Positions 966-61,959 of a DNA stretch of 64,000 nucleotides are shown here, one piece after another; the first letter of the stretch is position 1; each line of letters starts with the position of its first letter. A program made the position numbers and the translations under genes. The notes under the pieces are model-generated. The model worked only from the letters and a program-made list of their open reading frames with translations, was not told the DNA's origin and did no database searches. The DNA is from Ascaphus truei (Eukaryota; Chordata; Amphibia; Anura; Ascaphidae). Location: contig WSYH01001920.1 of NCBI GenBank assembly GCA_036426205.1, forward strand, positions 37,733-101,732, written 5' to 3'.

Positions 966-3900
966 GTGCACACTGATGCTGAATTTACCTTCTGCAGCCC
1001 GCAGACTATTTGATGGAAACGGTACTGAAATCTTTCGTTTGAGAGACACTGAAAGAGATCAGTTGGTAAGGAAGGATAAGAATGGGTTTAATTTTTTTTT
1101 TTAATCCCATCTGTGTCCTGACATAAGATCAACATTCACTTGCTGTTCGAGAGGATTTCATACCGCTTTGATACAAGGTAGTTAGTTACACTTCAATATA
1201 TGCAATACAATGAGGGCGAACTCACGGCGGGATGCTGCACTGTATGTGTGTTCTGCTGAACAGCATAACAGTCCAAGTACAAAAGGTGCGATTTCATTAC
1301 AGCACCATAGCCTGGACGCATCCGTGGAACAGATTATATGAAATAGCCGTATAAATCACATAATCACCTGGGAAGATGTAGACCTAGTGATTAATTTTTG
1401 TTTAGGTCGTAATTTATCATGCTGTGAATCCAATATTTTGTATCTTTCCCTGAGAAAACTGATATGTATGATCTATGACAGGTTTACGTTTCATGCGGAG
1501 ATCAATGGATTGATCCCCAATTGTCTGCGGCCGAGCACACAAAGCGCCTTCTGCTCAATAACCTTGCATCGGATGTATCTGTAATTCGAAACTATTGTTC
1601 CATGCGAAACCCGGAGAGTAAGTATTTCCTTTGAACGAAAAACATGTACAAATCCAGTTAAAACTTGCATTTTCAAGTTGTTAAAAAATGATGGGGGTGA
1701 TGTATCAAGGCAAATTTGGGGCAAAAGTGACTCCAATTGTGTTATTTGTATCTTGGGTCTCTTTGCATCAATGTACCAAGTGTTGGCACAGATTGCGTCA
1801 GCTTGTGATGTGGGGAGTGACAATAGGAGGAGTTAGGGAGGCGTTGTGACACACGGGTTATAATGAGATGTAGCAAATTCTTCATCTCTGTGCGTCACTT
1901 TTTTTTATCAGGTTTTTGTGTCAAAACAATCCGCCAGGTCTGAGGGGGTGTAAACTTTTCTGTCCAAAAATGTACATGAAATGTAAGAAACACTTGGATA
2001 TATTTGACGCCAAGGTGAGCAAAAAATGGTGCAATGCGTCAAAATAAACTCGTACCCTCTCTTTCTTTACATGAATACATCTCCCCCTAGGTTTTCACAT
2101 AATGAATTTTCGATTTTATTAATTTTGCGTGGTATATTTGTGCTGTAGTTATTGTAGCAAAACAAGATTGGTAAATCCGTGCCATTAGTATCTTTAGTGG
2201 CACCAAATATATTGCTGCTGGCATTTTCACTTTACATTCTAGACGCGCTGACAATATTAGTAACGACCCTGTTGGATCTTCCCAGATCTGGTTCTAGAGG
2301 TATGGGGTGACATTGTTGTTGGAGCAAAACTGTCCGTAAATCGTAGCGTGGAACTTACAGAAGAAGGAGAAATAGTGGCAGGAAATGGAGAAAGCAAACC
2401 TGAAGCCACGGAGGAAATCATCGAGGAAAAAGATTGTGATGCGTTTCTGTAAGTACACGTGATTGCTTCTTATTGATCAGCTAGTAATAATGAGATAATT
2501 GAGGCATTTTTGGTTTCAAGTGGTTTCTCTACAATTTGCCAGTTGTGGGATAAAATGTGTAGAGCACGTGGCAAAGCTGTCCTTGGCCAATAAGTTTGTT
2601 GAAAGATGTGGGGAGCTCAGGAACCGTGGATAAATAAAAATATATAAAATATATATAGTGCAATAACGATGATATAAAGTGTGTTAAGTAATGGAATATA
2701 CCCCCATATCGGTGAACACTCACACTTTGCAAGAATTAATACAGCATGTGTGCCCTTCTTGGGTACCTCTTGGTTTTATGTTGATTGTGACTGCGTCAGT
2801 TATATCTTCTTCTAGCCACCTCCGTGGTGCGGATGGACATAGAGAGCAGGAAAAATAAGCACAAGGGAGACGGACTAAGTGTAGGGAGTAACGCTATAAT
2901 CGCAAGTGTAACACAAATAACAAATGAACACTTGCATGTAACTCCCCAAAAAGTACAATGTACGAAGTCCGCCCTCGTGGATACCGGCGCTCTGCTCGAA
3001 AACGATTGTGGCTGTCGGGCAGAGGTGTACCATCAGCTGCTGTTGCGCACACAGCAGACGGAGGCTTGCTTCACTTCGGTGTTCCCCGTCAATGGTGCAG
3101 GCGCTTCGATTGACGGCACACGTGATGACGTCACGGACCGGTTCCTTCTGGGCTGGTGCTTGCCAAACTCTACGCGTTTCCCGAAGATTCGCTTCGTCAG
3201 GAGTTCGAACATCACGTGTGACGTCAATCGAAGCGCCTGCACCATTGTCGGGGAACACGGAAGTCGTCACGCACCAATGGAAGGAAAGATATGCCCCATC
3301 ATGGCCCCCCCCGCCTCCCCTAGAGATCCCCTACAGACCGCCGATCGCGGCTTGGAGATGTGCACGCGCCGCCAGGTCACCAGGCGGCAAGCTGCAGGTA
3401 AGACTGGGGCTGTAGTCTGAGGTTGAAGGAAAGGAGATTTCACCAACAACAAAGGAAAGGGTTCTGTTGATCCAAGGAGTAATTTGAGTCAGGAGGAATT
3501 TATTTTTCCCCTACTGAGATATCATTGGATGGTATTTCACTGGGGTTCTTCGTTTGCCAGAATATACTGCAAATACAAATATAGGACAAGTATCTGTCAT
3601 CTAAATTTAACATAGGTTGAACTTCATGGACATATGTCTTTTTTCAACCTTATCTCCCATGTAACTATGTAACATTACTATGTGACTATGTAATACGTAG
3701 CTATGTAACATTATTATATAACTATATAACATTACTATTTAACTATGTAACGTTACGACGTAACTATGTGACATTACCATGTAACTATTAACACTCATAA
3801 TATACACTAAGTACATACTAACGTAACTGATGTGGACTATTGTACTATGGTAATATGTAACATGACTACGTGACTACGTAACTATATGACATTACTATGT

Positions 3901-6367
3901 AACATGACCATATAACTATGTGACATTACCATGTAACTATGTAACATGACTATATATAACTAAGTTACATTACTACGTAACTATGTGACATTACTATGTA
4001 ACTATGTAACATGACTACGTGACTACGTAACTATAACATGACCATATAACTAAGTTACATTACTACGTAACTATGTGACATTACTATGTAACTATGTAAC
4101 TATGTAACATTACTATGTAACTATGTAACATGACTATGTAACTATGTAACATTACTACGTAACTAGGTGACATTACTATGTAACTATGTAACATTACTAC
4201 GTAACAAGGTGACATTACTATGTAACAATGTAATGTTACTATGTAACTATGTAACATTACTACGCAGCTATGTAATCAGTGTACAGTAAGTAGTTAAAAA
4301 AAACAGAAAGTACAAAGAGGCTGCAAATGCCTGACATAGCCACACACCATAAATAAAAGAATGATGTTCAGTCTTCCTCTCTAGGGATCCACACACAAGA
4401 TCTCACAAAAAAGTAGATGCCTTGTTCACAAACACAAAATACTCCTGGCAACAAACCCCACCGACGTTGGAGGCAGATAGCCTCGTCCTGACAGAAGATG
4501 GAGAGCAAAGCTATAATGGGTCAGTATGTAGCCATTGTACTGGTGGTTTCCCTTTGTGTTAACTACTGTAAGTTGTTCAACCTTTTAGTTCCTTAGGAGA
4601 CTTCTGCTACTTAAATCATGGTAGTAGTCCCATAGTAATGAATTATTCTATTTACACTAGTCAAGTGGAATTATTTCTTTATACCATATAAAATTTGTAT
4701 GCAAAAGAAAATGGTTACAAAAAAGCAGAACATCCCTGTTACATTATAACAGATGCTGGTAACCTTTTTTCTAAGAGGTTTATATTTGTAGTGCATTAAT
4801 GCACAAATCGGCTTTCAATTCAATCTTCACAGCAACATGAAAGAGTTCAGTATATTCATATTTTATCTGCCAACCAGCATAGTAAGTGATGAGGCTTGTC
4901 ACATACAGATTGTCGTCAAATACGGACAGTTTGCTCACTCTCGTTATAAAAAGTGTACCCCTAACCATTTCATTTCACCACAGGCACAACAAAAAGGCCA
5001 CTAAGCTGAAGCAGATTCACCGTCAACAGTTTGAATTCTTAGACGGGCAGATTATTAACTGTGCGTTCCCAGGACTAGTGGTCGGAGTGGCTGGCGCAGA
5101 GGTTCATGCAGGAATTGAGGTGCTGTTGATGGAAAGGAAATCTGTGGACCCCAACCAGCGTTGGAAATACGTAGCTGAATATAGGTACACTTATGCAGAT
5201 GCAGGAGGGGAAGTCACTCTTTATCAGTAGGTCCCATCGATAAAATCTTAGGACGCTACATATTTTCTCTAGCATGTCTTGTGAACTGCCATTGCTTTGG
5301 ACTTCTAGAGTAGAGCGATCTCCAGGAAATAATTGAATTAGCAGCAATATTACATGACAACGACTAAAGTGTTTACATCCCGTTAAAAACAGCACAAATT
5401 CAGAAACAACGTGTACATTTATTCTCAATCTAAATTCCTCCTGGAGTCTTCGTTTTGCAACTTTTGGTTGGTTTATAAAAGAATCTGACTTTATGAGATC
5501 TCAGATTTAACAGTATTGTAATTTACACCCAGAAGGGGTTCAAGCTCCATTCATTCACGTCCGATTTCAGTACTTCATCTCCACAAGACTGGCTGATGCT
5601 AAAGTTGTGGTCAAGCACTGCATGTATGACAAATACAGTGAACTTAATTATGAGCTTAATTATGCATGCAAGAATGTTATTGATGGAATTGTTCTTCTAG
5701 TCTTCATGTCTAACGGTGCAGTGAGGCTTCAGGTAATATACTTCTTCGCTCGGAGAGATGTGTTCACGTTCTGATTTTGTCAATTATAAGGTAGCTGAGC
5801 TTTCTTCCATACGAAGAATATTTTACACTAATGCTTTGAGAGAACAGATTCCCCTTTTGGGAATAGGATTCATTTCCGCAAACTGGTTGCAAAAGCAGCA
5901 TTATTATAACTTGGCATAACATTTGGCAGATATAAACTGGGATCCTGTTTTACCAACGGCTGCAGTAACGCTGATATTCTCCTGGGCAGGACATTTCATT
6001 TGGCAAGTGACCCAGATCTGGTACTAGCCATCTCAATGCCTAAGGTGTATCCGGGAGTGAAAGAGGGGGAAGTGAAATTCCCAGGATGCCCTATTATTCT
6101 ACAGGTGAGAGTTGCTTTTTCCCACTATTGTTACATAAATGGGCGTTTACATGTGACTTGTTTTATTGATATGTTTTTCTTTTTTTTTTATTGTAGAACT
6201 ATAAAGAGTACATCAATGGGGCTGCCAATCAAAAATGGTGTTATATTCCCAATGTGAAAGTATTGAGTGGCTTTTATAGTGATGCATTGGACAAAGAAAT
6301 CACAGCAGCAAATCAAGCAGCCATCTGTACTTTCACTCTTACCAATACTGAGAAAATAAGTCAGCCA
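966..6367 (+). CDS. DCDC1: DCDC1-like doublecortin/ricin-lectin gene, six internal exons (5' and 3' parts missing)
   Basis: Exons read from AG/GT borders and matching phases are 966-1065, 1482-1617, 2286-2448, 4385-4519, 4984-5184, 5990-6104 and 6197-6367 (seven if the first two, which form one domain, are counted separately). All join without a stop or frameshift, giving about 340 residues. The first two encode a doublecortin-type fold (SAARRLFDGNGTEIFRLRD, then YVSCGDQWIDP). Later exons carry QxW-type words (NQRW, NQKW) of a ricin-B beta-trefoil. This combination is typical of DCDC1, a very long microtubule-binding family protein linked to cell division. The beginning lies before the window. 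No later exon was found before DNAJB1, so the copy is either truncated at its 3' side or continues across a huge intron. The family call rests on remembered homology. Alternatives are a duplicated fragment or a related doublecortin gene. Confidence 0.72.
3079..3258. repeat. Foldback element with 37-bp inverted arms
   Basis: The arms 3079-3115 and 3222-3258 are inverted copies differing at one position. They contain GGTGCAGGCGCTTCGATTGA and its complement. The spacer is GC-rich with CRE-like TGACGTCA. It lies in an intron of the DCDC1-like gene and looks like a miniature transposon; the outer ends were not defined. Confidence 0.75.
3421..3672 (+). repeat. LINE 3' end (CR1/L2 group), internally deleted
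   Basis: Closely related to 45345-45775, sharing the AAAGGAGATTTCACC, GATATCATTGGAT and AACATAGGTTGAACTT segments, but lacking roughly 150 bases of the middle. It ends in the ATGTAACTATGTAAC tail that continues as a tandem array. Confidence 0.75.
3655..4280. repeat. Expanded LINE-tail minisatellite (ATGTAACTATGTAACATTACT)
   Basis: About 620 bases of degenerate tandem units built from TATGTAACTATG and ACATTACTA words. The unit is the same as the natural tail of the adjoining LINE 3' end, so the array most likely grew from that tail. Confidence 0.85.
5185..5989. other. Intron of the DCDC1-like gene
   Basis: The flanking exon phases join directly across this stretch (AG + G). An open-looking segment near 5560-5735 has no matching phase and was not called. 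No transposon end was recognised. Confidence 0.6.
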
Positions 6368-15111: not shown

Positions 15112-15601
15112 ACTCCAACAACTGATTTTCATGCAATCAAGGTGCTCCACGTCTATTCACAATCAGTGCAGCGGTGATGACGGTACAGGGGGATAGGAAT
15201 GGTAATAATAAATAATTGACTCACACGGCCGTGTGTGAGTCACCACCCTGCAACGGTATCTTTATCTGGAGTCCGGTAGCCTTGGGGTGTTCTCCCACAT
15301 CAACACGCGCTCGTAGTAGGTCAGGTGTGAGTGTCCCGTGTATGCCACAGATATCCGGAAAAGTATGGGTTAAAATAATATCTTTAATCGATGGCTACAT
15401 AAAACAAACAAGGTAAACCACTCACATTGTGGATAAAAACGATGAATAAGGCTTTTTCCGTTTTCTTGCTGCAGGCTGCTCCACTGTCCGCCGCGTCCGG
15501 AGTTCAGGGGAAGCAACAATCGCGAGTCAGGAACTACGGCAGCCGTCAGAGTCCAAAAAGGTCCATGCTCATAGGACAACGCGTTTCGCACTAATTTCAT
15601 A

Positions 15602-15943
15602 AATTGCAGGAGCAGCTATGTTGTGTACCTGCTCGAATGCCCATGTGGTTTACAGTATGTGGGACGCACGGCTAGGCCGTTGCGTGTCCGCATACTGGAA
15701 CACATGGGCAATATTCGACGACATCTACTTACACACAATGTGTCCAAACACTTCTGTATGCACCATTCCAGAGATCCATCTGGTTTGGTATATAGGGCCA
15801 TTGAATCAGTACCCCAAAACTGTCGCGGGGGTGACAGACTGAAACGTCTCGCTCAACGAGAATCGTACTGGATTTATACACTCCAGACCATGTCACCCGC
15901 GGTTCTTAATGTCGATATCGACATAGTGATCCAACTGTATTAA
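15602..15943 (+). CDS. GIY-YIG endonuclease domain of a Penelope-like element (C-terminal part)
   Basis: The frame reads VVYLLECPCGLQYVGRTARP, then ILEHMGNIRRH, then GGDRLKRLAQRESYWIYTLQ and a stop after DIDIVIQLY. The CPCGLQYVGRT segment corresponds to the GIY-YIG motif (YLL...YVG), followed by the arginine and glutamate (the E of QRESYWI) expected in the nuclease fold. In intact elements this domain follows the reverse transcriptase and nicks the target DNA. Here the RT is absent and the frame begins abruptly beside the inverted arm, so it is a truncated copy, although this part has no stop. Confidence 0.85.
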   Translation, partial: NCRSSYVVYLLECPCGLQYVGRTARPLRVRILEHMGNIRRHLLTHNVSKHFCMHHSRDPSGLVYRAIESVPQNCRGGDRLKRLAQRESYWIYTLQTMSPAVLNVDIDIVIQLY

Positions 15944-16302: not shown

Positions 16303-16624
16303 ACCTGTGGAATACTCACAGTATTTTGCTGGTTCGGTTTGCCCACTAGAGGACTCTCTTGAGCTATATCACTGTCTTTTCTCCTCATGTATCCCCAATA
16401 AGATTTTTATTGTGTATTTTTATCATATGTATTACACATGTTATTTATTTATTATGCATATTGATTTATATGTATGCACAACATATTGTATCAAGGATGG
16501 AATTTTGGTCATGAATCCTCCGGACTCCGTTTTGATGCATAATTGAACAATCTCAGCATACACCTGAATAGAATCAGTCATCCGAAACAGCTATTTAAAC
16601 CTACCTGCACATCACAACGCTCAT

Positions 16625-16664
16625 GGACCTGACGAAGCACAAATAAGTGCAAAACGCGTTGTCC
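16625..16664 (+). ncRNA. Hammerhead-like ribozyme motif in the Penelope flank
   Basis: Stem I is GGAC (16625-16628) pairing with GTCC (16661-16664). CTGACGA (16629-16635) matches the CUGANGA core. Stem II is GCAC/GTGC around loop AAATAA. AAAA at 16651 stands where GAAA is expected, followed by CGCGTT with a possible cut after GTT. The inverted copy at about 15575-15600 (minus) retains GAAA. Departures from consensus are one extra A between the core and stem II and the G-to-A change. Hammerheads are known from Penelope-like elements. Confidence 0.5.
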
Positions 16665-16734
16665 TTTTTGGACTCTGACGGCTGCCGTAGTTCCTGACTC
16701 GCGATTGCTGCTTCCCCTGAACTCCGGACGCGGC

Positions 16735-18134
16735 TGTGGCGATAGGCTTGGCCGGCCTTCCTTACAAGGGACATACAAGGGTACTATAGGGATTTAGTGA
16801 CCCACTACAGTGCTCTAACTGACCCCCGGACTAAGGTGATTGACCAGAGGGCAGTGGTGCTGGCAGCCTGGTTCCCAGAATGTGGACCAGCATTTCAATG
16901 TCTGCAGCGGATCCTTGCCCTGTTGAACTTGGACTATGGAGGCAAGGGGTCCCACCATGCTGGAGGACTTAACCAGCCAGATGGACTCCGTTTCTTCCCG
17001 GCAACCTCAATTTTTTCAGGCTCAGCAAGCCACCTGATGATGGTGACTGTCCTGGCGCCTTCATAATTGAGGGGGGAGGTGTGGCGATAGGCTTAGCCGG
17101 CCTTCCTTAATAAAGGGGGAGCCCGGCTGGCTGCCCCTGAAACCATATGGTATGGGCTGAGAGTGTCCGCTCTTGTGTCCAAATGTTGGTTCTCTGTGTT
17201 TTAAAACTGCAATGTATTATGTTTGTCCTGTGATTTAAACCCAGGTTGGTGACAAAAGGCAGTCTGAATTAGCATGTGAATTACATGTGGATTAGCGTTT
17301 CAATGCCCCAGCTCAGAAAGGGGTTCCAAGCCCAAATCTCCCCAATTTATTTCCCTTATAAGTATAAGATTCCCCAGAGTATATTCTGTAAGGAAGTGTA
17401 CTTTATATTGTGTTTTAATGTTTACTATAAGGTTCTATACAGAAAGCACAGGCATATGGTTAATATGCTGGCTAGTTTGCATAGATTCCATAGTTCAAAG
17501 AGGAGAGGTATGGCAGAGGGGGGAAACCATTTGGTGAGCAGGATGTTCAGATTGGGATGTCTTTGTTTTACTAGACACCACGGAGCAAGGGAAAAAGAAA
17601 ACGGCCCTGGATGTCAGAACTGATAAGCAAGGTTTCTACTGGCAAGTTTTGAATTTATCCCTCCTATCAGTGAATGCGTAATTTCAATCCCTGCTTTAAT
17701 TGGCTATTACACCCCTCAATGATTTAGATAGGAATTCAGCCTATATAAGAGTGTGCAGTAAAAGCAGCTTTCTCTCGATTTTTCCTGTTGGAGATCTGAA
17801 GACAAGCAGCTGCTGGCGGGCCTCTCACTTCTGATGCTTCTGTGAAAGAGCTATTCACACCTGGAAGCATGGGGAGGCCTAGCCAGCAGCCTGGATTTCG
17901 GTCCAGGAGCCCAAGGTCCTATCAAGGTAAGCCTTTGCTGAACAGGCGCCTTGCAACTAGGAAAGGGTAGATCTCTTCCCCAGACCCCCGTAAGTGTGTA
18001 TATTCTCTGTTTCTTGTATTTCTGTGTGTTTCCGAGGTCTTGTCCGAATAAACCGCAATTTATTTTACTGCCTGTTTTGCCTTGTGACTGATCCCTTAAA
18101 TATAAATGTGTATTTGGCCTGCCCTCCCATGACA
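16735..18134 (+). mobile_element. LTR retrotransposon remnant inserted in the Penelope flank
   Basis: Starts TGTGGCGATAGG and ends CCATGACA, flanked by perfect 5-bp duplications GCGGC (16730-16734 and 18135-18139). Only the first bases of the 5' LTR remain, then a short internal remnant, a purine tract GAGGGGGGAGG (17069-17079), then a full 3' LTR (17080-18134). Most of the interior is deleted. Confidence 0.85.
17080..18134 (+). repeat. 3' LTR of the element at 16735
   Basis: About 1055 bases, TG...CA ended, with TATATAAGA near 17742 as a probable TATA box and AATAAACCGC near 18047 as a poly(A) signal. Its first 60 bases resemble the LTR beginning at 49923. Confidence 0.8.
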
Positions 18135-20513: not shown

Positions 20514-21945
20514 CAGGGCCGCCGAGAGGGGGGGACAGACGGTACTGGTGTCTCTGGCCCGGTGGCGGTGGGGAGCCCAGTGGCCGGACAAAGCAATTGC
20601 CTGCGGGCCCTGGCTCTCCCCACCTGCAGGCCTCTTCCTCTAACTCTGTCCCACGCCGGGCCCTCTAAGTCCTTAACACGACGGGCCTCTCTGATGTCGG
20701 TGCGCCGAAGGTGAGCTCGGCCCAGGTTCCAGCGCGTGGCGCCATGCGTAGGCGGGCAGGCACACGCTGAAGTCAAAGAGTCCAGCGTGGGACAGAGATA
20801 GCCTGGGTCCATAGAGGGGGGAGCCGCGCTGAGCCCCGTCATCCTCAATGAGGATGTCTTTAGAGGTGGCTCCCGCGAGCGTCCGCAGGCGTGCTGAGGC
20901 GCAGGGATTTTCAGCCGACAGCCGAAACTGTTGCTCAGCGCGCTGTCGGCTGAAAACACCCAATCAGCGCGAAGCAGCGTCATGACGTCGACGACGTTGA
21001 CGTTGGCGCTTCGTGGGCTATTGGCCCAGCGACGTCACTGCCCCGCCTTCCGATCGCGCACGCTGAGGCTCGCCTGCCAGTCCATGGAATCGCTCCTGAC
21101 CGAGCAGGCGAACCTCAGCGTCAGCGCGCAGGAGCGCGGCTGGACCCCTCTATGGCCTGAGCCATAGAGGAAGAGGCCTGCAGGCGGGGAGAGCCGGGGC
21201 CTGCCGGCAACTGCTTCGTCTTGCAGCCGGGCCCCTCGGCAGTCACCGTCCTCCTTCCCGGGCAGTCACCCCCGCCCCTAGCCCCCTTCCAGGCAGTCAC
21301 CCCCCTGGGGGCCTTCTTACTGTTTATTGGGGGGGGGATTGAGTGAGAGCGGAGAATTGATAGGTGGGGCGAGTGAGAGGAGAGGGGGGGAGGGAGTGAG
21401 GAAAAGAGGGAGTAAGGCCGCGCTCAGGGTGCCGGCGTCGCGATGGAGAGTGCGCGCGGCCGTCTCCCGCGCGATGTGTGAATATCCCTCCTGCTGAGCT
21501 TCAGGAGAAGATTAGGGAGGCCATGGGGGGCGCGGCGGACGCGTCACGGAGCTGGTTCGCCCTCATTGGCTGAAACAGCTCACGAGGCGCTGACGTCACG
21601 CGACTGCAGCCTCTGATCTCAAAATCACTTGTATCCCCAAGCTGCAGCCGCGTCGACGCGGCACAGCGACGCCAGGTGCCGCGACCACCACGCTACCTTC
21701 CATAGACTACAATGGAAGAGTCCCTGACGTGCGTGCGCAAGTCACGACGCCGGAATCCTCAGCACGGCCTGAGAGTGAGACGCAGGGGAGAGATATACAT
21801 GCGGGGTGGGAGGGGGGGGTGAGTGAGGAAAAGGGAGTGAGACGGAGGGGAGAGAAATACATGGGAAGAGGGTGGGAAGTAGACGGGGGCGAGGGGGCGG
21901 ACGTAACTCTAATCCTGGGCCCCGGTAAATCTGTCTGCGGCCCTG
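20514..21945. mobile_element. Non-autonomous hAT-type element, 1.4 kb, GC-rich
   Basis: Begins CAGGGCCGCCGAG and ends TGCGGCCCTG, flanked by GGTGTGGG on both sides (20506-20513 and 21946-21953), the 8-bp duplication size of hAT elements. The array it sits in repeats this word, so the duplication alone is weak; the inverted ends support it. Inside, 20560-20645 and 21165-21230 are inverted copies. A segment near 21547 (CTGGTTCGCCCTCATTGGCTG) is shared with the element at 41441. No transposase. Confidence 0.65.
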
Positions 21946-23105
21946 GGTGTGGGGTATATATGGAAGGGTGTGGGTTATATATGAGGCGCGTGGGTTACAT
22001 ATGAGGTGCGTGGGTTAAATATGAGGGGTATGGGTTATATATATGAGGTGCGTGGGTTATATATGAGGTGCGTGGGTTATATATGAGGGGCGTGGGTTAT
22101 ATGTGAGCGCGTGGGTTATATGTGAGGGGCGTGGGTTATATGTGAGGCGCGTGGGTTATATATGAGGGGCGTGGGTTATATATGAGGGGCCTGGGTTATA
22201 TATGAGGGGCGTGGGTTATATATGAGGGGTGTGGGTTATATATTGAGGCGCTTGGGTTTATATGTGAGGGGTGTGGGTTATATATGAGGAGTGTGGGTTA
22301 TATATGAGGAGTGTGGGTTATATATGAGGGGTATGGGTTATATATGAGGCGCGTGGGTTATATATGAGGCGCGTGGTTATATATGAGGCGCGTGGTTATA
22401 TATGAGGCGCGTGGGTTATACAAGACGTGCGTGGGTTATATATGAGGCGCGTGGGTTATATATGAGGCGCGTGGGCTATATAGGAGGGGCGGGGCTATAT
22501 ATGAGGGGTGTGGGCTATATATGAGGGGCGTGGGCTATATATATGAGGTGTGTGAGCTATATATATGAGGTGTGTGGGCTATATATATATGAGGTGTGTG
22601 GGCTATATATATATGAGGTGTGCGGGCTATATATATGAGGTGTGTGGGCTATATATGAGGTGACGTTGGGTTATATATGAGAGGTGTGGGTTATATAAGA
22701 CGTGTGTGGGCTATATATTAGGCGTGTGGGCTATATATATGAGGCGTGTGGGCTATATATATGAGGCGTGTGGGCTATATATAGGGCTTGGGATATATAT
22801 GACGGGTGTGGGCTTATATAGAGCGTGTGGATTATATATGAGGACGTGGTTGTGTGGCTATATATATGAGGCGTGTGGGCTATATATGAGGCGTGTGGGC
22901 TATATATATGAGACGTGTGGGCTATATATGAGGCGTGTGGGCTATATATGAGGCGTGTGGGCTATATATGAGGCGTGTGGCCTATATATATGAGGTGTGT
23001 GGGCTATATATGAGGCGTGTGGGCTATATATATGAGGCGTGTGGCCTATATATATGAGGTGTGTGGGCTATATATATATGAGGGGTGTGGGTTATATATG
23101 AGGCT
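21946..23105. repeat. GTGGGCTATATATGAGGCGT minisatellite, right part
   Basis: About 55-60 units of 19-22 bases with alternating TATATA cores and GAGGNGYGTGGG blocks. Unit variants cluster (GGTTATA early, GGCTATA late), as expected from local amplification. The open frames through it are artefacts. Confidence 0.95.
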
Positions 23106-23279
23106 TTTGATGATATCCATCAAATCAGTTCAGTGGCAAATATCTCTGCTATGCTTGCCCACATCCAAGATGGCGACTAGTTGCTTCTCTGCCAGACCTG
23201 CTCCTTGCTTCATGTGCGCATGCGCACGTGACGTAAAGGAACGGAGGCTTGGTTCTGTCAGGAGCGCACATTTGGCAGT

Positions 23280-24718: not shown

Positions 24719-27660
24719 ATGGGGAAGGATTACTACAAGGTCTTGGGCCTGGCGCGGGGGGCGGCGGAGGAGGATATTAAGAAGGCGTACCGAAAGCAAG
24801 CACTGAAATATCACCCTGACAAGAACAAGGACCCCGGAGCGGAGGACCGCTTCAAGGAGATCGCCGAGGCCTACGATGTGCTGAGCGACCCCAAGAAGCG
24901 GGAGATATTCGACAAATACGGAGAAGAGGGTACGTATATATCACTATCTCTAGCACTGTGTAACGTTTATAGTCTTATAGGGAGTGTACAGACCTTAGGT
25001 GGCCGAGTACGGAGAGATCTTAACGTAGTGGTGGGCAAGATGATATACACCCTTAAGTTCTCATATATAGGATGTGGGGTGGAGAGAGTAATATAAGAGG
25101 TTTGTACCTTTTTTCTGCCTTTTTCTCCCTGGGTCACGGGCAAGGATGTTGCATCCGAGAGTAGGACCTTCTCTCTGTCCATGTCTAGATACCGGATTGA
25201 CGCAGGGGGTCTCCGGAGCTGAACGGTGTTAATTTTCGGCCCCTGGGACCCCCTGTGCTTCGGAGTTTTTTTTCAGCGCACGGTCATTGAGCCACTGACC
25301 GGGAGAACTCGTGATCCGTGGCAGCTAATGTCCCCACTCCCTCTGCTCCTGGGAAGAGAGGGCAGCTGGGGCAGGTCATGGCAGGCACCCCCAAAGTGTG
25401 GGGAGGAAGGTGCGTGTGTATATGGGAGCTTGTTAGAGAGATGCACACACGCAAATGAATGGTAGGAAGAGACTGCGCCTGTAAGAATCCTGTGTGCAAT
25501 GCTGCGTCCCGCGCGCTATATTGTAATGGTGAAGCACTTTGCGTCCCATTGGGAGAAGAGCACAATATGAAATAAAGGTTCTTTATTAATGGTGGAGGAC
25601 AAAGCCTCTGTTTGTTCTCATTTGAATACCTTTCGTGCCACCAACTCCCACAGCGATGGGGAGTTGAAGGCGCCAGTGAGGACGTGGCAACAATGTGTAA
25701 CCGGTTCTAGACGTTCTCATTTAATTGCTCCTATAAGTCTCTGGCTGTTGGCAACGTGGTTTTTGCCATTTTTGTGTGCGATGCTCTGCTGGGAGACTGC
25801 CGAGTGACGCGACGCTCTGCATTGTGCTTACAGAGCGACTGTCTGGGTTTCTCCTTTTTTAGAGCGAAGCTCTGTGTCGTGTTTAGTCGCGTCTCGGTAC
25901 ACACACAATGCTCTGCAGGGTTTGCAGGCTCTGTCCTGTCTGAGCTGTTGGTATTCCTGCAAATCAGGACATGTTTCATCTCTGCCGTCCAACACTATGC
26001 TCTCTTCCTGCTCTCTCACTCCTGTACCGCTCCCTGCCTGGGCTGCTGACTTGTCTCCCCTCTGTACAAGCCTTCGCCTTCTCCACTCCTCCTTTTTTAA
26101 CTCCTCTGCCTCCTCACCAACACCATTCTTACCCTGCCTCTTCTCCCCCTCCCCGGGCCTATCTGCAATGCGGGGTCCGTTCAGGGCTACTGGCCCTACA
26201 CAGCGCTGTTGGGGGGGACACCCATGTGGTGATTACCGGAAGGTGGGACTTAACTTGCATTTTGGAACGCCAACCGGGCCCCCTTCCCCTCCGCCCCCCC
26301 ACCCCCAACTGCACAATTGGAGATTGAGACTAGCGGTTGGGGGCTGCAAGGGAAGGTCCCTGCGGTCTGCCTATTGCCCACCAGTGATGTATCTTCTCCC
26401 CTCCCTGTCTCTTCCCCCCCCCCCCCAGGTCTGAAGGGCAGCCCAGGAGGCGGAGGTGGCGGCGGTGGCCCCAATGGCCAGTCATTCAGTTACAGCTTCC
26501 ACGGGGATCCCCACGCCATGTTCACCGAGTTCTTTGGGGGGCGCAACCCCTTTGACAACTTCTTCAGCCGTGGCGAGGATGACATGGACACAGAAGACCC
26601 CTTCGCAAACTTCGGCATGGGGGGCTTTGGCAACATGGGTGGCTTCCCCCGGGCTGTTCCTCACCGGCAGGATCCCCGTTCCAGGAAGCAGGACCCCCCG
26701 GTCGTGCGGGAGCTGGCGGTCTCGCTGGAGGAAGTGCTTACCGGCTGCACCAAGAAGATGAAGATCTCCCACCAGAGGCTGTGCCCGGACGGGCGCAGCG
26801 TGCGCTGCGAAGACAAGATCCTCACCATCCAGGTGAAGAAAGGCTGGAAGGAGGGCACCAAGATCACCTTCCCCCGAGAGGGCGACGAGACGCCCACCAA
26901 CATCCCAGCAGACATCGTCTTCGTGCTGAAGGACAAACCCCACCCCGTGTTCAGGAGGGAGGCGTCTGACGTGATATATCCGGCCAAGATCAGCCTCCGA
27001 GAGGTGAGATGTAGAGGGGTGTGTGTGTGTGGGGTGGGGGATGGGTGGTGTGTACAAATACATGACACTCCTAAAATAAAGTTACTGGTTTCCTTTTGCC
27101 GTGTACACTTATCAAATGACTTAATTAACAAATACATCACCCAGGACAAAAGTCACAGGTATGGATCGGACAAAGCAACACAGCACCACGCATGTAATTG
27201 GTATCAAAGTAGGCATATTGGAGTCCACATTATCCAACGTTTCGGTCCCCTCCAAAGGAGCTTCATCAGGACAACGTTGCCACTTTTGAGGGGACCGAGA
27301 ACGTTGGATAATGTGGACTGTAATACACTTATTTTGATACTAACCTGTATGGTGATGGTCGCAAGCGATATTGTGTGGATCACTTGGTGATAATAATATA
27401 CTGCTGCATACTAATCCTCTTCCCAACAGGCTCTCTGCGGCTGCTCCGTCAACATCCCCACCATGGACGGTCGCACCCTCCCCCTCACCTTGAAAGACAT
27501 CGTCCGCCCAGGGACCAAGCGGCGGATCGCCGGAGAGGGCCTCCCCCTCCCCAAATCCCCCGATCAGCGCGGGGACCTCATGGTGGAGTTCGAAATCCGC
27601 TTCCCCGAGCGCCTCCCGCCCGCTTCCCGCGAGGTGCTGGAGAGAGTCCTGCCCGCCTAA
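24719..27660 (+). CDS. DNAJB1: DnaJ homolog subfamily B member 1 (HSP40), three exons, 338 aa
   Basis: Cytosolic and nuclear HSP40 that delivers clients to HSP70 and stimulates its ATPase. Exons are 24719-24929, 26429-27003 and 27430-27660, with GT/AG borders and phases 1 and 0, as in mammals. The start [15 protein letters not shown] begins the J-domain, with the HPD triad at residues 32-34. A Gly/Phe-rich region follows ([20 protein letters not shown]), then the two beta-sandwich C-terminal domains ([53 protein letters not shown]). The length is close to the human 340. No stops or frameshifts were seen, so it looks functional. The coding part is much GC-richer than its surroundings. The next gene, GIPC1, has the same order and strand as in mammals. 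Confidence 0.97.
24930..26428 (+). other. DNAJB1 intron 1
   Basis: GTACGT donor to a C-rich tract and CAG acceptor. No clear transposon was recognised; a C-run immediately before the acceptor forms the pyrimidine tract. Confidence 0.85.
27150..27352. repeat. Foldback element in DNAJB1 intron 2
   Basis: GGTATCAAAGTAGGCATATT ... CCACATTATCCAACGTTTCGG on the left is mirrored by CCGAGAACGTTGGATAATGTGG ... TTTTGATAC on the right. On the minus strand it carries CTGATGA (27263-27269) and CGAAACGTTGGAT, a reduced form of the hammerhead-like words seen elsewhere, but the stem between them is not clean. Confidence 0.75.
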
Positions 27661-35260: not shown

Positions 35261-35644
35261 AACCCCATATCTGCCGCGGGCATAGACGTCCGCTCCCGTT
35301 AACCCCCCCCCCCTGTCTCAAACGACGAGGGTGTTCGACCTCGTTCCCTGGTCTCGCCCCATGTTTGGCGTCCCGGAAAGTTCTCCAGGGGTTTTTGCCC
35401 CCCTCCCTTGTCACCACGGTGTCAAGCGGAAACTCTTTTGGGCTCCCGGACAGGCCACTTTCTTTCTCGCCCCCATGTGTCCACCTCCCCCCTCTCTCCC
35501 CCTCCCTCACCCTGACCACTCCCAGAGGCCCGTCCAGGGACAGCACGAGGGCCCCCCGTCCCCTTGATCTAAGGACCCATCCACCCCCGACATGGGAATC
35601 ACTCGGGGTCCGGGGTTTGTCCCCAGGAACCATTGCCCTACCTA

Positions 35645-38600
35645 ATGGCGTCAATTAAAATCATCTCTCTAAATGTTAAGGGCCTCAACTCTGTTAGAAA
35701 ACGCATTCTGGCTCTCCAAGAGCTAAAAAAAACCAAAGGCGATATCATTTGTATCCAGGAAACCCACTTCAATACCCCAGATCCACCTAACACATTCAAA
35801 CACACTTTCCCCCAAGCGTACTTTGCATCATCCCCAAACAAGAAACGCGGTGTAGCCATACTGATCAAGAATAACATCCCCTTCGCCCCAACAAAGGTAG
35901 CCAAAGACCCTCAAGGTCGATATTTGCTACTCCAAGGTACACTGTCTGGGTCCCCCATCTCCATACTGAATATATATGCCCCTAATGACAATCAAATCCA
36001 ATTCCTTCAGAATCTACTTGGTTCATTCGACCTATCGGTACTCTCCTCGCTACTGCTAGTTGGAGACGCCAACATGGTCCTTTGCCCAGACCAAGACAAA
36101 TCCACTCTGCCCACGACACCACACACTGCCCAGACACAGAAAAAGGCCAAAACGTTCCGTGAAATTCTGAGAAACTACTCCTTGTCAGATATCTGGAGGG
36201 CCCAGCATGTAGGACAGAGGGACTACATGTTCTTCTCAGCTCCTCATCAGTCTTACTCGCGGATTGACTACTTTCTAGGTACCAACAATGTTCTCCAGGC
36301 ATCCTCCCACTCCAACATAGGCCCAATTACCTGGTCAGACCACGCCCCTGTCGAACTTACCCTCTCTCTGCCTTTCGTCAAAAGCTCTGCGTACAAGTGG
36401 AAACTGAACGACTCACTCCTTAACGACCCTCAATTGATCAAAACAATCAAACAAAAACTAAACACTTTTTTTCAAATAAATAGCGGTTCAGTCTCAGCAG
36501 CAGCAATGCTCTGGGAAGCGCACAAAGCTACCATCAGTGGAGACCTTATTTCATTAGCCTCCTATAAGAAGAAAATAAAACTCAAAGCGCAAAAAGAACT
36601 CGCTGAGAAGATCCTGGCCCTAGAACTCCAACATAAGCAGACCCCATCAAAAAAAAGTGTTCAGAACCCTAGATAAAGCAAGAACAGAACTTAAAGTACT
36701 GCAGCTTGACGAGGTAGAGAGAGCGCTGAAATGGACTAACCAAAAGTTCTACGACAGGGGCAATAAAGCCGATAAACTCCTGGCCTCGAAACTTAGAGGC
36801 GTAAAGGCCAAAGCCCAGATCACAAAAATCCGCACCAGGAACGGACAGCTAACATATAACGAGAAAGAAATAGCGCAGGAATTTTCAGAGTTCTACAAAG
36901 AACTTTACAACCTCCACCCCCCGGCCAGGACCAGGACAGTGCCAAAATAGCCGCAGAATACCTATCCCAATGCAACCTCCCAACCCTTTCAGCGGAAGAG
37001 CTTGACTTGCTTAATCAAAAAATAACCCAAGAAGAGCTGTCCCAAGCCATCACCTCTCGCAAAATAGCCAAGACACCCGGCCCAGACGGGTTCTCTAATG
37101 CATACTATAAAAAATTCGCAGCATCCCTCTCCCCTTATCTATTGGACATATTTAATTCCTTCTTAGAAGGGGAACCAATCCCAGGTACAATTTCGTCCGC
37201 CAACCTTGCGATCATCCACAAGGAAGGAAGAGATCCGCTACAATGCGGTAGCTATAGACCTATCTCCCTACTCAACACAGACCTCAAGCTTTTCAGCAAG
37301 ATCCTTGCAAACAGGCTGAACCCTATTCTCCCCAGATTGATTCATATAGACCAGGTGGGCTTTGTGTCAGGAAGACAGGCCTCTGACAACACCCGCAAAA
37401 TTATCGACATCATAGACCACGTCCACCTCAACAAGTCTCAGGCCATGATCCTAAGCCTTGATGCCGAAAAGGCTTTTGACCGAATCAAATGGTCCTTTCT
37501 CGACCAAACCATGCTTCGGTTTGGCTTCTCGGGTCCGTTCCTCGAGGAGGTGCGAGCCCTATATAACAACACCCACCACCCTTCTAAAACTCCCGGGAGG
37601 GCACTCCAATCCAATAACAATCAAAAATGGAACCAGGCAAGGTTGCCCACTATCCCCCCCTACTATTTGCCATATCGATAGAACCATTGGCAGCCCGGAT
37701 CAGAGCCGAACCCTGCATAAAGGGCATCCCAATCGCAGATAGGGAGTATAAAATCTCCCTCTTTGCTGATGACGTCATTCTGACCCTAGCCAATCCGCAC
37801 ACCTCCCTTCCCAATCTGCAGAAACTGTTGGACCAATTTAGTTTAGTGTCCGACTATAAAATAAATACGGACAAGTCCGAGGCGCTCAACATTTCTCTCC
37901 CAGACCCTACATGGAAACTCCTACAAACCAACTTTAAATAAAATGGAATCAGCTCCCACATTAATACTAGAGGGATAAAAATAGCGAGCTCCTATAGCTC
38001 TTATATCATGCTAATTACCCCCCCCCTTCTGTTTCCGCCGATCAAAAGGGAACTAGATTCCTCGGGCATACTCACCAGATTTGGACGAATTGTGTCCGCC
38101 AAAATGAACATCCTCCCTGGCTTACTCTACTATTTTCAGACCCTCCCAGTCCCAGTTCTGCTAGTAGAACTACGGAATATGCAGGCTCATATCCTCCGCT
38201 TCATATGGAGGCAGCGCAGACCAAGGGTGCCGAAATCGGTGCTGCTGGCTTCCAGGACGAGAGGGGGCTTGGGGGTCCCGGATGTGGTCAGGTACTACCA
38301 GGCAGCCCAGCTGAGGCAGGCTGCGGTCTGGAATAATCCCCCGACCTCCAACTGCTGGTTGGCGATAGAAACCCACCACGCGGCCCCCACCCCCCTCCCG
38401 GCCTTACTATGGTCGCCGGCCTACAAGCAAAGAAGGCCCCTGAGACTTGAGCTCGGGGCGATGAGGTGCACGTGGTCTACGTGGAATAAAACCAAAGGGA
38501 AACATGGCCTAGCTTCATCCCCCTTGCAACTCACCCCCATCTTCGGGAATCCAGACTTCCCACCCGGGTGCTCCCGTCCCCAATTTGGTCAATTCCAGGA

Positions 38601-42260: not shown

Positions 42261-42956
42261 CCAGTAGGCCTGTACGTAAATACGGGCCTGTATACGTGCT
42301 GTTTGGCTTCTGAGGAGAGCACCCTTCTAAAACTTGGGTGGAGGGTAAATTACTCCAGGACATGTCCCCTAACTCATTCCCACCTATACATTCTATTGCT
42401 TTGCTTCATTGTAAAGCTCTGAGGACGTAGTCTGGCAATATAAAGCAGCGCGGGGTGGGTTAAAATTCAGCTCCCTCCTACCACAGTCTAACTCTAGGGC
42501 GAGACCACCTTCCTCTCGGGTGTGATCAGGATCTTTTAAAAGATTTGTAAAATGCAAAATCCTTAGTCCCCCTTCTGTTACTGGGCCCACGTGTTACTCT
42601 TAGGAACGGTTGTACCCAGAGAGCCCCGGACTTTACCCGAAGAGGATTCTGGGTAAGGAGAGAGACTGTTTTTAAGACTGGGCCAGCGTGAGCCGGCCTG
42701 GGACGATTAACGCTCCCAAGGATGCAAGAAGCTAGTCTGACCCAAAACGACACTAATCCGGAGCGGATTCGGGCGCCGAGCCACAGCTCACAGAGCGGTT
42801 ATCTGTGACACGTCCGTGCCCAAGGTCAGAATGCTGAGTGCGTGACGAGCCTGAAACAAAATGCCAGCACAGAATAAAGATACTCACCCCACATACAGGA
42901 GGGAAGGAAGGAGAGACAGTTACAGCAGATAAGAAGTTACAGGGGGAGGGGAAGGG

Positions 42957-43640
42957 AGCACTCAGTGACTGTTTTGTCTAGAACGCAAAGAGAGCGCTCA
43001 GTGACTGTTTTGTCTAGAACGCAAAGAGAGCGCTCAGTGACTGTTTTGTCTAGAACGCAAAGAGAGCGCTCAGTGACTGTTTTGTCTTGCACGCAAAGAG
43101 AGCGCTCAGTGACTTTTGTCTTGCATGCAAAGAGAGAGCTCAATGACTGTTTTGTCTAGAACGCAAAGAGAGTGCTCAGTGACTGTTTTAGAACGCAAAG
43201 TGAGCGCTCATGACTGTTTTGTCTTGCATGCAAAGAGAGCGCTCAGTGACTGTTTTAGAACGCAAAGGGAGCGCTCAGTGACTGTTTTGTCTTGCATGCA
43301 AAGAGAGCGCTCAGTGACTGATTTGGCTAGAACGCAAAGAGAGCGCTCAGTGAATGTTTTGATTAGAACGCAAAGAGAGCGCTCAGTGACTTTTGACTAG
43401 AATGCAAAGAGAGCGCACAGTGACTGTTTAATCTAGAACCCACAGAGAGCGCTCAGTGACTGTTTAATCTAGAACCCACAGAGAGTGCTCAGTGACTGTT
43501 TTGTCTAGAACATAAAGAGAGCGCTCAGTGACTGTTTTGACTGGCACGCAAAGAGAGCGCTCAGTGACTTTTGTCTAGAACGCAAAGAGAGCGCTCAGTG
43601 ACTTTTGTCTAGAACGCAAAGAGAGCGCTCAGTGACTGCA
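42957..43640. repeat. 36-bp minisatellite
   Basis: About 19 units of CAGTGACTGTTTTGTCTAGA + ACGCAAAGAGAGCGCT, with some units shortened to 28-33 bases. Since 36 is a multiple of three, frames stay open on both strands without being genes. Confidence 0.95.
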
Positions 43641-43744
43641 TTAAGGCGATATAGTGACGCAATCATGGTCTTTGCTGGGGGAAAATCTGCCATATATTTT
43701 AAGAAAGTTGTCTGTCTGCTCGCTATGCATTTGGAAACCTCTTA

Positions 43745-57388: not shown

Positions 57389-57560
57389 TTACTGGGGTAA
57401 ATTGTCAGCAGCACTGAGCACACATTCTCTCTCTTCCTCATCCAGTCTGAAGGAACAGTCTATGGTGTGGTTCAGCTTTTCACACCATAACCATTTCTGG
57501 TGCGGTTCCTTTTGCGGGACCACGCTGGGATTTAAAGCAGAAAAAAACCCAGAGATGTAG
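57389..57560 (-). pseudogene. Short coding-like stretch upstream of the coiled-coil remnant
   Basis: The minus frame contains WLWCEKLNHTIDCSFRLDEE and ECVLSAADNLPQ, then a stop and a lysine/arginine run. It may be an earlier part of the same broken protein. Not recognised. Confidence 0.3.
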
Positions 57561-58351
57561 ATAAGGTAGGGTGAGAAAGGGATGTCTGAAGACATTGGAA
57601 GGGTAATAAACGGTAACAAGGACCAGCATGGAGGGGGAAGAGGATGCTGTAGTGGGGAGGGTTGGAGGGGGGGGGGGGGAATGGTGTGGATAAGAACATT
57701 GGCAGAGAGGCAGGCAGGATGATTTTATTGTAGCCATGGCTGGGTATGGCTAATATTCTGCCCTACGGCTGGCAGTAAACCCTGGTACTATCAGGTTGCT
57801 AGTAGTCATCATGGTGTTTTCACCCTCCGAGGAACTGCATTTGAGTGACAGCGGGTGGCGGTGACATCAGGCCCTGGCATGACCAATCATGAGCCGGACC
57901 TGGTGCCCACCTCCTGGCATACTTAAAGGCAGGACCGCCCTAAAGTTAGCAGTGCCTTTCCCCACCTGAGGAAGGCAGGTCACACAGTGGAAAGGCTGAG
58001 ATTGGACCTTCTCTAGTCCTCTTCCCTCCGGGGGACAGTGAGTGTGGACCATACCTCTACCTCCACTAGGGAGGTGGGGAAGAGCTAGGACGGCTGCGGG
58101 TGCCCTTGGCCTTCAGTGGCAGACCAGGGACCATCATCCGGTGAATCCTGAGAGACTGTATTGGGCAGATCCTGCCTTGTTCCTGTTACTGCAGAGTGTA
58201 GTAATAAACCCGTTCCTGTTTTGCAATATACCTCCTGCCTGGGGGGAGAGGTAATAAGTTCTACCGTGGGAGATCAACTTCAGTTCCTGGAGCCTACGGC
58301 AGATGGTGGCGCTGCACTGCTAAGGAGATATGTGGGGTATGAACCTCAGAA

Positions 58352-59303
58352 ATGACAAAAGAAAAAAAGTGCGCAGCTAATAACTGATAAATAGGTATAA
58401 ATACACTATAGTGAATATATTGTGCAATAAACCAATAAAATAACCGTATAGGACACTGATGGTACTTTATATTCCCTGATGAAGTAACCTAGTGTTACGA
58501 AACGCGTTGGACTGTGTTTCATGCTCAATTCCCAATACCATATGGTGTTTTATTTCTTTATTTGTACCCCTATTGACCCCTGTGGCAGTTGTTTCACGAT
58601 CTGACAGCCTGTGTGTCTTTATGTGAGCCGAGCGGTGCCGTGCGCAATTGCTGCTGGAGCTGTGAGACTTGCACTGGTAGCGAAGCCAGTGACGTCATCA
58701 GCGGGCGCCCCCACATGGCACAGCGACTGGCTACCGGCTAAACAGAGCGGAGTCACTGATCAAGACTACCTTACACTACTTTAAGACTCTGAATCTCTGT
58801 TGTCCCCTGTGCCAGCCAATTCCCGTTCTGTCAGCCTGTGTCTCCCTGCAAGCCGAGCGGTGCTACATGCTGCGATAGCCGTGAGCCCTGTACTGTCAGT
58901 GGAACCAGTGACGTCATCAGCAGGCATCCCCATGCGACACAGCGGCGTGCTGTCGGCATGATACAGGGAAGTTACTGACCGGGACTGCAGTTTACTATTC
59001 TGGGACTGGTGTGTATTGTTTTACACTGTGGACTAATGAATTTACAGCAACAAGACGGAGAGAGTGTGATCTATTGATCCAGAGGGCTCCCCTGCCACGT
59101 TTGATGACTGCTGGTCTGCTGTTCTTCCCTTCACGTCGGGTGATGAGCGACGACTTCAGCTGTCTTGCTGTGTGGTAACCCCACTAACCCCTTGTCTGAT
59201 TTTATCAATTTTGATGTACGCAGAACTTATTTTTCCTTAGTAAAGCATTTTTATATACTGTATTTCACTATGTGCGTTGTGCGCCCTGTTCTTGTTTTGT
59301 TTC
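58352..59303 (+). mobile_element. Non-autonomous element, 952 bp, with a 13-bp target duplication
   Basis: ATGAACCTCAGAA occurs at 58339-58351 and 59304-59316. Inside are a hammerhead-like motif (58473-58511) and two tandem copies of a roughly 230-base unit (from about 58598 and 58835; AGCCGAGCGGTGC, AGTGACGTCATCAGC). Penelope-related by the shared ACGAAACGCGTTGG motif. Confidence 0.65.
58473..58511 (+). ncRNA. Hammerhead-like ribozyme motif
   Basis: CTGATGA (58476-58482) matches the CUGAUGA core. GTAAC (58484-58488) and GTTAC (58494-58498) form a perfect 5-bp stem II around CTAGT. GAAA at 58499-58502 completes the core, followed by CGCGTT with a possible cut after GTT at 58508. Stem I has only three pairs (TCC/GGA). 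As in the copy at 16625, one extra A stands between CUGAUGA and stem II, so activity is uncertain. The self-complementary ACGCGT could act as a dimer-forming stem III. Confidence 0.5.
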
Positions 59304-59507
59304 ATGAACCTCAGAAGCCTGTTCCTAGGTCCACACTACCATCGACGGACGACTCAGCCTTCCCGTTGCCAGCAGGTATATGCACCGGTCCATACACCCT
59401 GTAATGGCCCCTATCTGCGATCGGGTGGGGGGGAAACACCTTTACATATATATATTGCAAATGCACTCTTGTTTTTGTTATATATATATATATAAAATAA
59501 AAACAAG

Positions 59508-61608: not shown

Positions 61609-61959
61609 CAGGGGTGCGCAAACTTTTCCCCGTGCACACCCCTGCCTGCTCTTCTCTGCGGCTCGGCCCCGGCGTCAAATGACACCGCGGGGTCATGCGA
61701 CCCAGTACGCCGGGTTACCATGAGGTCGCGTCGCTGGTAGGTAAGTGTGTTATGGAGGCCTCACACGGTCCCCTGGCATTTAATTTAAATGACGGGGGAG
61801 AGTGTTTGACCTCTATAACTGCCGTGCCTACCAGCGACGCGACCTCATGGTAACCCGGCGTACTGGGTCGCATGACCCCGCGGTGTCATTTTTTGCCGAC
61901 CCCTCGCCGTATAGCAGCGCCCCCCGGGGTTGGCACCCCCCCCAGTGTGCGCACCCCTG
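61609..61959. mobile_element. hAT-type miniature element with a perfect 8-bp duplication
   Basis: CAGGGGTGCGCAAAC and GTGTGCGCACCCCTG are inverted ends. CCTTAAGA flanks both sides (61601-61608 and 61960-61967). The interior is a long foldback (CATGCGACCCAGTACGCCGG / GTACTGGGTCGCATG). Confidence 0.95.

Follow-up and report, generated by a model that had tools for sequence, protein, structure and literature searches.

The 64,000 nucleotides of Ascaphus truei DNA analysed here, referred to as the window, contain at positions 58473-58511 a short segment resembling a hammerhead ribozyme, located inside a 952-base insertion. The locus raises the question of whether this segment (copy A) is a conserved ribozyme or a chance resemblance, and what kind of element has carried it. 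In our reading the segment is a minimal type I hammerhead lying at the 5' edge of a pseudo-LTR that belongs to a Penelope-like retroelement; a probability of about 0.85 was assigned to this explanation.

The motif and its copies in the host genome

Read from the sequence, the plus strand at 58473-58511 is UCC-CUGAUGA-A-GUAAC/CUAGU/GUUAC-GAAA-CGCGUU^GGA. Its parts, all on the plus strand and read from the sequence, are as follows.

58473..58511, plus strand: minimal type I hammerhead (copy A); match of model R1 (see below) at 58468-58516
58473-58475, plus strand: 5' strand of stem I, UCC
58476-58482, plus strand: core, CUGAUGA
58483, plus strand: extra A, preceding stem II
58484-58488 / 58494-58498, plus strand: stem II, GUAAC / GUUAC, 5 bp
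58489-58493, plus strand: loop of stem II, CUAGU
58499-58502, plus strand: GAAA
58502-58507, plus strand: palindrome ACGCGU replacing stem III; same string in 67 of 100 sampled copies
58508, plus strand: U before the expected cut; predicted cut at 58508/58509
58509-58511, plus strand: 3' strand of stem I, GGA (3-bp stem I)

In standard hammerhead numbering we take UCC/GGA to be stem I, CUGAUGA to be C3 to A9, GUAAC/GUUAC to be stem II and GAAA to be G12 to A15.1, with ACGCGU in the place of stem III and U58508 as position 17, before the cut. The type I order of CUGANGA, GAAA and NUH is found at 58476-58508 with one inserted A. The sequence thus bears out the type I order, the perfect 5-bp stem II and the extra A at 58483 that had been named in the original prediction.

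A full grammar was matched once in the window, by copy A, vs no match in 400 first-order Markov sequences of equal length. It required the core, zero or one inserted base, a stem II of at least 4 bp, GAAA, any of four strings resembling the palindrome, and A, C or U as the next base. The looser pattern CTGANGAAG-N(4-24)-CGAAACG gave two matches in the window vs none in 100 shuffles. Its matches in the host assembly, which comprises 19,235 contigs and 2.82 Gb, numbered 35,711 vs 50 for the reversed control. The 49-nt RNA was no more stable than its shuffles (folding energy z -0.22). The case for a hammerhead is made by conservation and covariation, and folding energy does not help it.

Copies were sampled as the first 100 listed places of the pattern with the extra A (+A pattern), all of them on one chromosome or contig. 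The core, the opening G-C pair of stem II and an A at the extra position are all required by this pattern, while the remainder of both stems is free. For stem I and the covariation counts 88 copies were used, after removal of 7 of the 100 which had no readable cut site and of 5 duplicates. A stem II of at least 4 bp was present in 70 of the 100 copies, vs 8.7% when the halves were swapped between copies, and a stem I of at least 3 bp in 62 of the 88, vs 28% when swapped. The covariation score of stems I and II in the 88 distinct copies was 0.659, vs 0.164 in shuffled alignments (sd 0.015), and none of 500 shuffles scored as high. In the same alignment 84.7% of the cells were paired (55.8% when shuffled) and 248 cells were changed on both sides (81 when shuffled), values which were also reached by none of the 500 shuffles. 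Both-side changes were found at all four varying pairs of each helix, and all four Watson-Crick types were seen at pairs 2 to 5 of stem II and pairs 2 to 4 of stem I. Two of the five covariation measures, the coarser ones, were not above the shuffles: the number of pairs with any both-side change was 8 vs 7.3 (146 of 500 shuffles as high) and that of further pair types was 35 vs 32.7 (57 of 500 as high). Since the sampled copies are related to each other, shuffles overstate the covariation; registers slid along the alignment share this kinship and yet scored only 0.120-0.189. Stems I and II therefore covary across the genomic copies as they should in a type I hammerhead, which was the check that had been proposed for this site.

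The palindrome was ACGCGU in 67 of the 100 sampled copies, ACGU in 16, and another or a decayed string in 17. A short palindrome in the place of stem III, as in the minimal, dimer-type hammerheads of Penelope elements, is a regular part of the family, and the early suggestion of a self-complementary, dimer-type stem III holds. ACGCGU was followed by A in 51 of the 67 copies, by U in 16 and never by C or G; because only A and U occur here, the copies fit the NUH rule for hammerhead cut sites. The 16 ACGU copies also have U next, but in that class U is part of the reading rule.

A model, R1, was built from the 88-copy alignment. It matched copy A with 52.4 bits (E 4.7e-16) and, with E values no higher than 1e-5, three further sites of the window. 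These sites and a half copy are listed here with their inverted arms.

16621..16668, plus strand: hammerhead copy B; R1 36.0 bits, E 3e-10; GAAA changed to AAAA
15570..15617, minus strand: half copy C, holding the motif's 3' part; lies in the inverted arm facing B; R1 just 12.6 bits, E 0.052
15490-15568/16656-16734 and 15246-15494/18135-18383: inverted arms around copies B and C
27228..27277, minus strand: hammerhead copy D, within an inverted repeat; R1 23.1 bits, E 1e-5; arms 27198-27256/27285-27343
3163..3208, minus strand: hammerhead copy E, between inverted arms; R1 33.3 bits, E 2.7e-9; arms 3073-3127/3210-3264

About 1.4 kb (16735-18134) apparently interrupts the element of copy B, with the inverted arms matching on both sides. 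Copy D lies near the end of a frame with a DnaJ C-terminal domain (26317-27390, E 1e-21), on the other strand. At 15570-15617 and 27198-27343 of the window, and in the host loci L042, L043 and L062, the arms start in or near the loop or stem II, as if reverse transcription had stopped or switched there.

The same arm ends (L042, L043, L062 and copies C and D), where copying seems to have halted, would agree with the motif serving, at the edge of the pseudo-LTR, as a retained structural signal which cuts weakly or never, the extra A marking this change. Such a signal could be a stop or a self-priming hairpin for reverse transcription, or a protein-binding site. This reading also gains from the Anolis hammerhead, whose mutation left in vitro insertion unaffected (PMC11167929), and from a viroid hammerhead moderately slowed by an extra A (PMC3705267). 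On the other side, a plain hairpin would have no need of the non-stem core bases or of A or U before the cut, and both are kept (67 of 67 copies for the latter). Since the search pattern itself dictated the core, conservation of the core is a weak point against the signal. Taken together, a merely structural role appears unlikely, and the motif is treated below as a hammerhead, whose presence at 58473-58511 is confirmed.

The 952-base insert and its Penelope-like relatives

The insert, 58352-59303, consists of 952 bases flanked by two copies of ATGAACCTCAGAA. Its apparent layout is given below.

58339..58351, no strand: left target-site duplication, 13 bp, ATGAACCTCAGAA
58352..58465, minus strand: inverted segment from the distal part of the element's 3' tail, positions 1-114 of the insert; opposite strand in other copies
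58466..59303, plus strand: sense pseudo-LTR, starting about 10 nt before the hammerhead core; near-full-length matches
58570..58986, plus strand: imperfect tandem duplication in the pseudo-LTR (58570-58767 and 58797-58986, about 70% identical)
59304..59316, no strand: right target-site duplication, 13 bp, ATGAACCTCAGAA

With the insert as query at least 95 matches were obtained (40 of 1134 candidates scored). Among the matches listed, at least 10 near-full-length ones besides the insert itself start at position 115-123 of the insert, whose first 114 bases are a different segment. In other copies (L138, L141, L142) this segment is found on the opposite strand, about 40-48 nt past insert position 952, which suggests that the insert is an inverted piece of the 3' tail followed by the sense pseudo-LTR. 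L141 is laid out in the same way, with a longer inverted arm and its own 13-bp target duplication. Published descriptions of Penelope elements include inverted pseudo-LTRs, a tail that one of these may carry, and short target-site duplications (PMC3846280). The copy A insert and L141 show this anatomy of direct or inverted pseudo-LTRs, a tail on one and a short target duplication. In six loci (L038, L039, L042, L043, L048, L054) the sequence shared by the copies starts about 2 nt ahead of the core, at a place upstream of the expected cut.

Other copies of the motif lie close to coding sequence. The following frame of the window is flanked by copies B and C in their inverted arms.

15578..15940, plus strand: open frame located between C and B, with nuclease sequence of GIY-YIG-like type; the opening residues overlap C

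The frame matched PF01541 with E 0.0014 and 19.4 bits, under the curated cutoff of 22.6, and had four metagenomic protein relatives with 44-52% identity. A stretch 51-52% identical to it (tblastn) is present in L044, L046, L049, L050 and L064 on the same strand as the motif, and ends, judged by the alignment ends, 320-336 nt upstream of it. L050 and L064 overlap, so these five loci represent four insertions; the motif core is mutated in L044 and L046. In the four insertions the motif has the pseudo-LTR location of minimal Penelope hammerheads. Two of them are contained in L138 and L139, where RVT_1 matches occur farther upstream (E 1.9e-5 to 3.6e-5; 24.0-24.9 bits, under the curated cutoff of 29.6), and a Pfam search of the L138 frame holding the GIY-YIG-like stretch found nothing. 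For a reverse transcriptase with a C-terminal GIY-YIG domain, the RVT_1 and PF01541 matches are thus all under the curated cutoffs, and GIY-YIG in the relatives was recognised through tblastn. In a sample of 30 loci with 1.5 kb of flank on each side, GIY-YIG homology lies upstream on the same strand in 4 (L010, L015, L019, L030), and an inverted repeat surrounds the motif in 5 (L016, L020, L022, L025, L031), or in 6 if a 35-nt pair in L017 is included.

In the relatives, the place of the motif is downstream of GIY-YIG-like and reverse-transcriptase coding sequence, which supports the Penelope-like carrier suggested in the original prediction. The 952-bp insert appears to be a pseudo-LTR copy that has undergone rearrangement, its source being a Penelope-like element with a reverse transcriptase and a GIY-YIG-like nuclease. 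The prediction had also proposed that the element is a small mobile RNA processing itself. The size of about 1 kb, the target duplication and the confinement of other copies to the same segment would suit a short retrozyme-like element moving as its own small circular RNA. However, the insert holds a single hammerhead and no tandem unit bounded by hammerheads, and in related copies the same pseudo-LTR comes after coding sequence. An independent retrozyme-like element was therefore rejected as very improbable.

Some other features were observed in the window. A LINE-type retrotransposon lies at 35633-37681, with frames matching Exo_endo_phos (E 7e-15) and RVT_1 (E 4e-22), and a near-palindrome at 61632-61936 has two 152-nt arms, 80% complementary and 1 nt apart. 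Tandem arrays are located at 3663-4285 (step about 21 bp), 21921-23145 (about 20 bp) and 42907-43679 (about 36 bp).

The extra A before stem II

The extra A had been regarded as a reason for caution. Cores without it (CTGANGAG-N(4-24)-CGAAACG) were matched 1,392 times in the host assembly, vs 334 for the control. The +A cores are about 26 times as numerous as counted, and about 34 times after subtraction of both controls; among the 1,392 are about 334 that the control would predict, members of a separate family with a GACC/GGUC stem II, and apparent one-base-deletion forms. Many of the 100 listed no-A matches belong to that GACC/GGUC family. The extra A is the common form in the Ascaphus truei genome and not a defect of copy A. 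The GACC/GGUC family is a second hammerhead family of the host assembly (L143-L146), without the extra A and recognised by Rfam Hammerhead_1; in L143 it stands in direct repeats 218 bp apart, as satellite or retrozyme units do.

Rfam release 15 gave no hammerhead in the window at gathering thresholds, none in 57500-59500 at E up to 10, and none at E up to 10 in 20 tested loci of the 100 sampled copies. As a positive control, four host loci without the extra A gave six matches to RF00163 scoring 32.2-34.8 bits, of which three exceeded the cutoff of 34. The type I model of Rfam does not recognise copy A, and the model match that had been hoped for at the site came only from R1, built in this analysis. 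A chance resemblance lacking conserved structure, for which the missing Rfam match and the ordinary folding energy could be cited, was rejected as extremely improbable given the 35,711 matches vs 50 in the control and two covarying helices.

A text search of the literature found neither CUGAUGAAG nor CUGANGAAG among the matches listed. A pattern scan of viral contigs yielded six stretches, none of which had family-like paired stems by eye, so that they were set aside; three of the six (L002-L004) represent a single conserved stretch. An extra A between A9 and G10.1 has been reported for the plus hammerhead of chrysanthemum chlorotic mottle viroid, where it made cleavage moderately slower, C or G at this place was much worse, and U was better (PMC3705267). 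Tentatively, the +A core might be a distinct, long-fixed hammerhead subclass of these Penelope-like elements, retained in numerous families and over tens of thousands of copies, with the no-A core persisting in separate tandem repeats of this genome. The extra A might make such a ribozyme slow by itself and dependent on a dimer or an element protein, which would tie cleavage to the assembly of the retrotransposition complex. We consider this idea less probable than not.

Proposed mechanism and comparison with known systems

The motif family has a conserved core, covarying stems I and II, a palindrome where stem III would be, A or U just ahead of the predicted cut, and the extra A as its common form. 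Copy A is predicted to cut itself, which we consider likely. A pair of hammerheads, belonging either to one multi-unit transcript or to separate ones, would join through ACGCGU and form a double hammerhead sharing stem III. Each would be cut after U58508 (position 17), perhaps aided by an element protein, and the freed units would start with GGACUG. In a simple two-strand calculation the forced double hammerhead, with one stem I drawn, had -15.2 kcal/mol vs -22.8 kcal/mol for the best duplex; with the ordinary energy of the single RNA, simple energies thus give no support to the dimer model. The rearrangement of the insert, an inverted tail piece and a sense pseudo-LTR, would be expected of twin priming or template switching in target-primed reverse transcription.

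In this one genome a small ribozyme fold is present in about 36,000 copies with natural variation, the majority or all of them carrying an insertion in the core, and the 20 tested +A copies escape Rfam. This copy set makes it testable what role the hammerhead has in Penelope-like elements, called unknown in a review (PMC7761336), and why a core form is kept which is slower in the viroid (PMC3705267).

Minimal type I hammerheads of Penelope-like elements were reportedly described by Cervera and De la Pena in 2014 and by Lunse, Weinberg and Breaker in 2017. The copy A hammerhead belongs to this published minimal, dimer-type, Penelope-like class, and its membership is well supported. According to two reviews, such hammerheads occur in the pseudo-LTRs of Penelope-like elements, are minimal and possibly dimer-acting, and have an unknown role (PMC7761336, PMC6155905). 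The copy A family shares with them the type I topology, a reduced stem III (dimer-acting there), the pseudo-LTR location and very many copies in animal genomes, and apparently differs in that the common A. truei form has an extra A between CUGANGA and stem II.

Like the Anolis Poseidon element PAc, the family has its hammerhead at the edge of a Penelope-like pseudo-LTR. In PAc cleavage falls 26 bp within the coding frame, whereas the motif of the copy A family lies 320-336 nt past the GIY-YIG-like stretch; the PAc hammerhead cut only with added protein, and its mutants did not affect insertion in vitro (PMC11167929). The tandem repeats of retrozymes, with RF00163 Hammerhead_1, have the same type I order of core and stems (PMC7229834), and such repeats also exist in A. 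truei (L143-L146). Unlike the copy A family, these have a core without the extra A, a 218-bp direct repeat (L143) and detection by Rfam, by which the 20 tested +A loci went undetected. The plus hammerhead of chrysanthemum chlorotic mottle viroid shares the extra A between A9 and G10.1 with copy A (PMC3705267); it belongs to a viroid, and no test in this analysis indicated kinship between the two.
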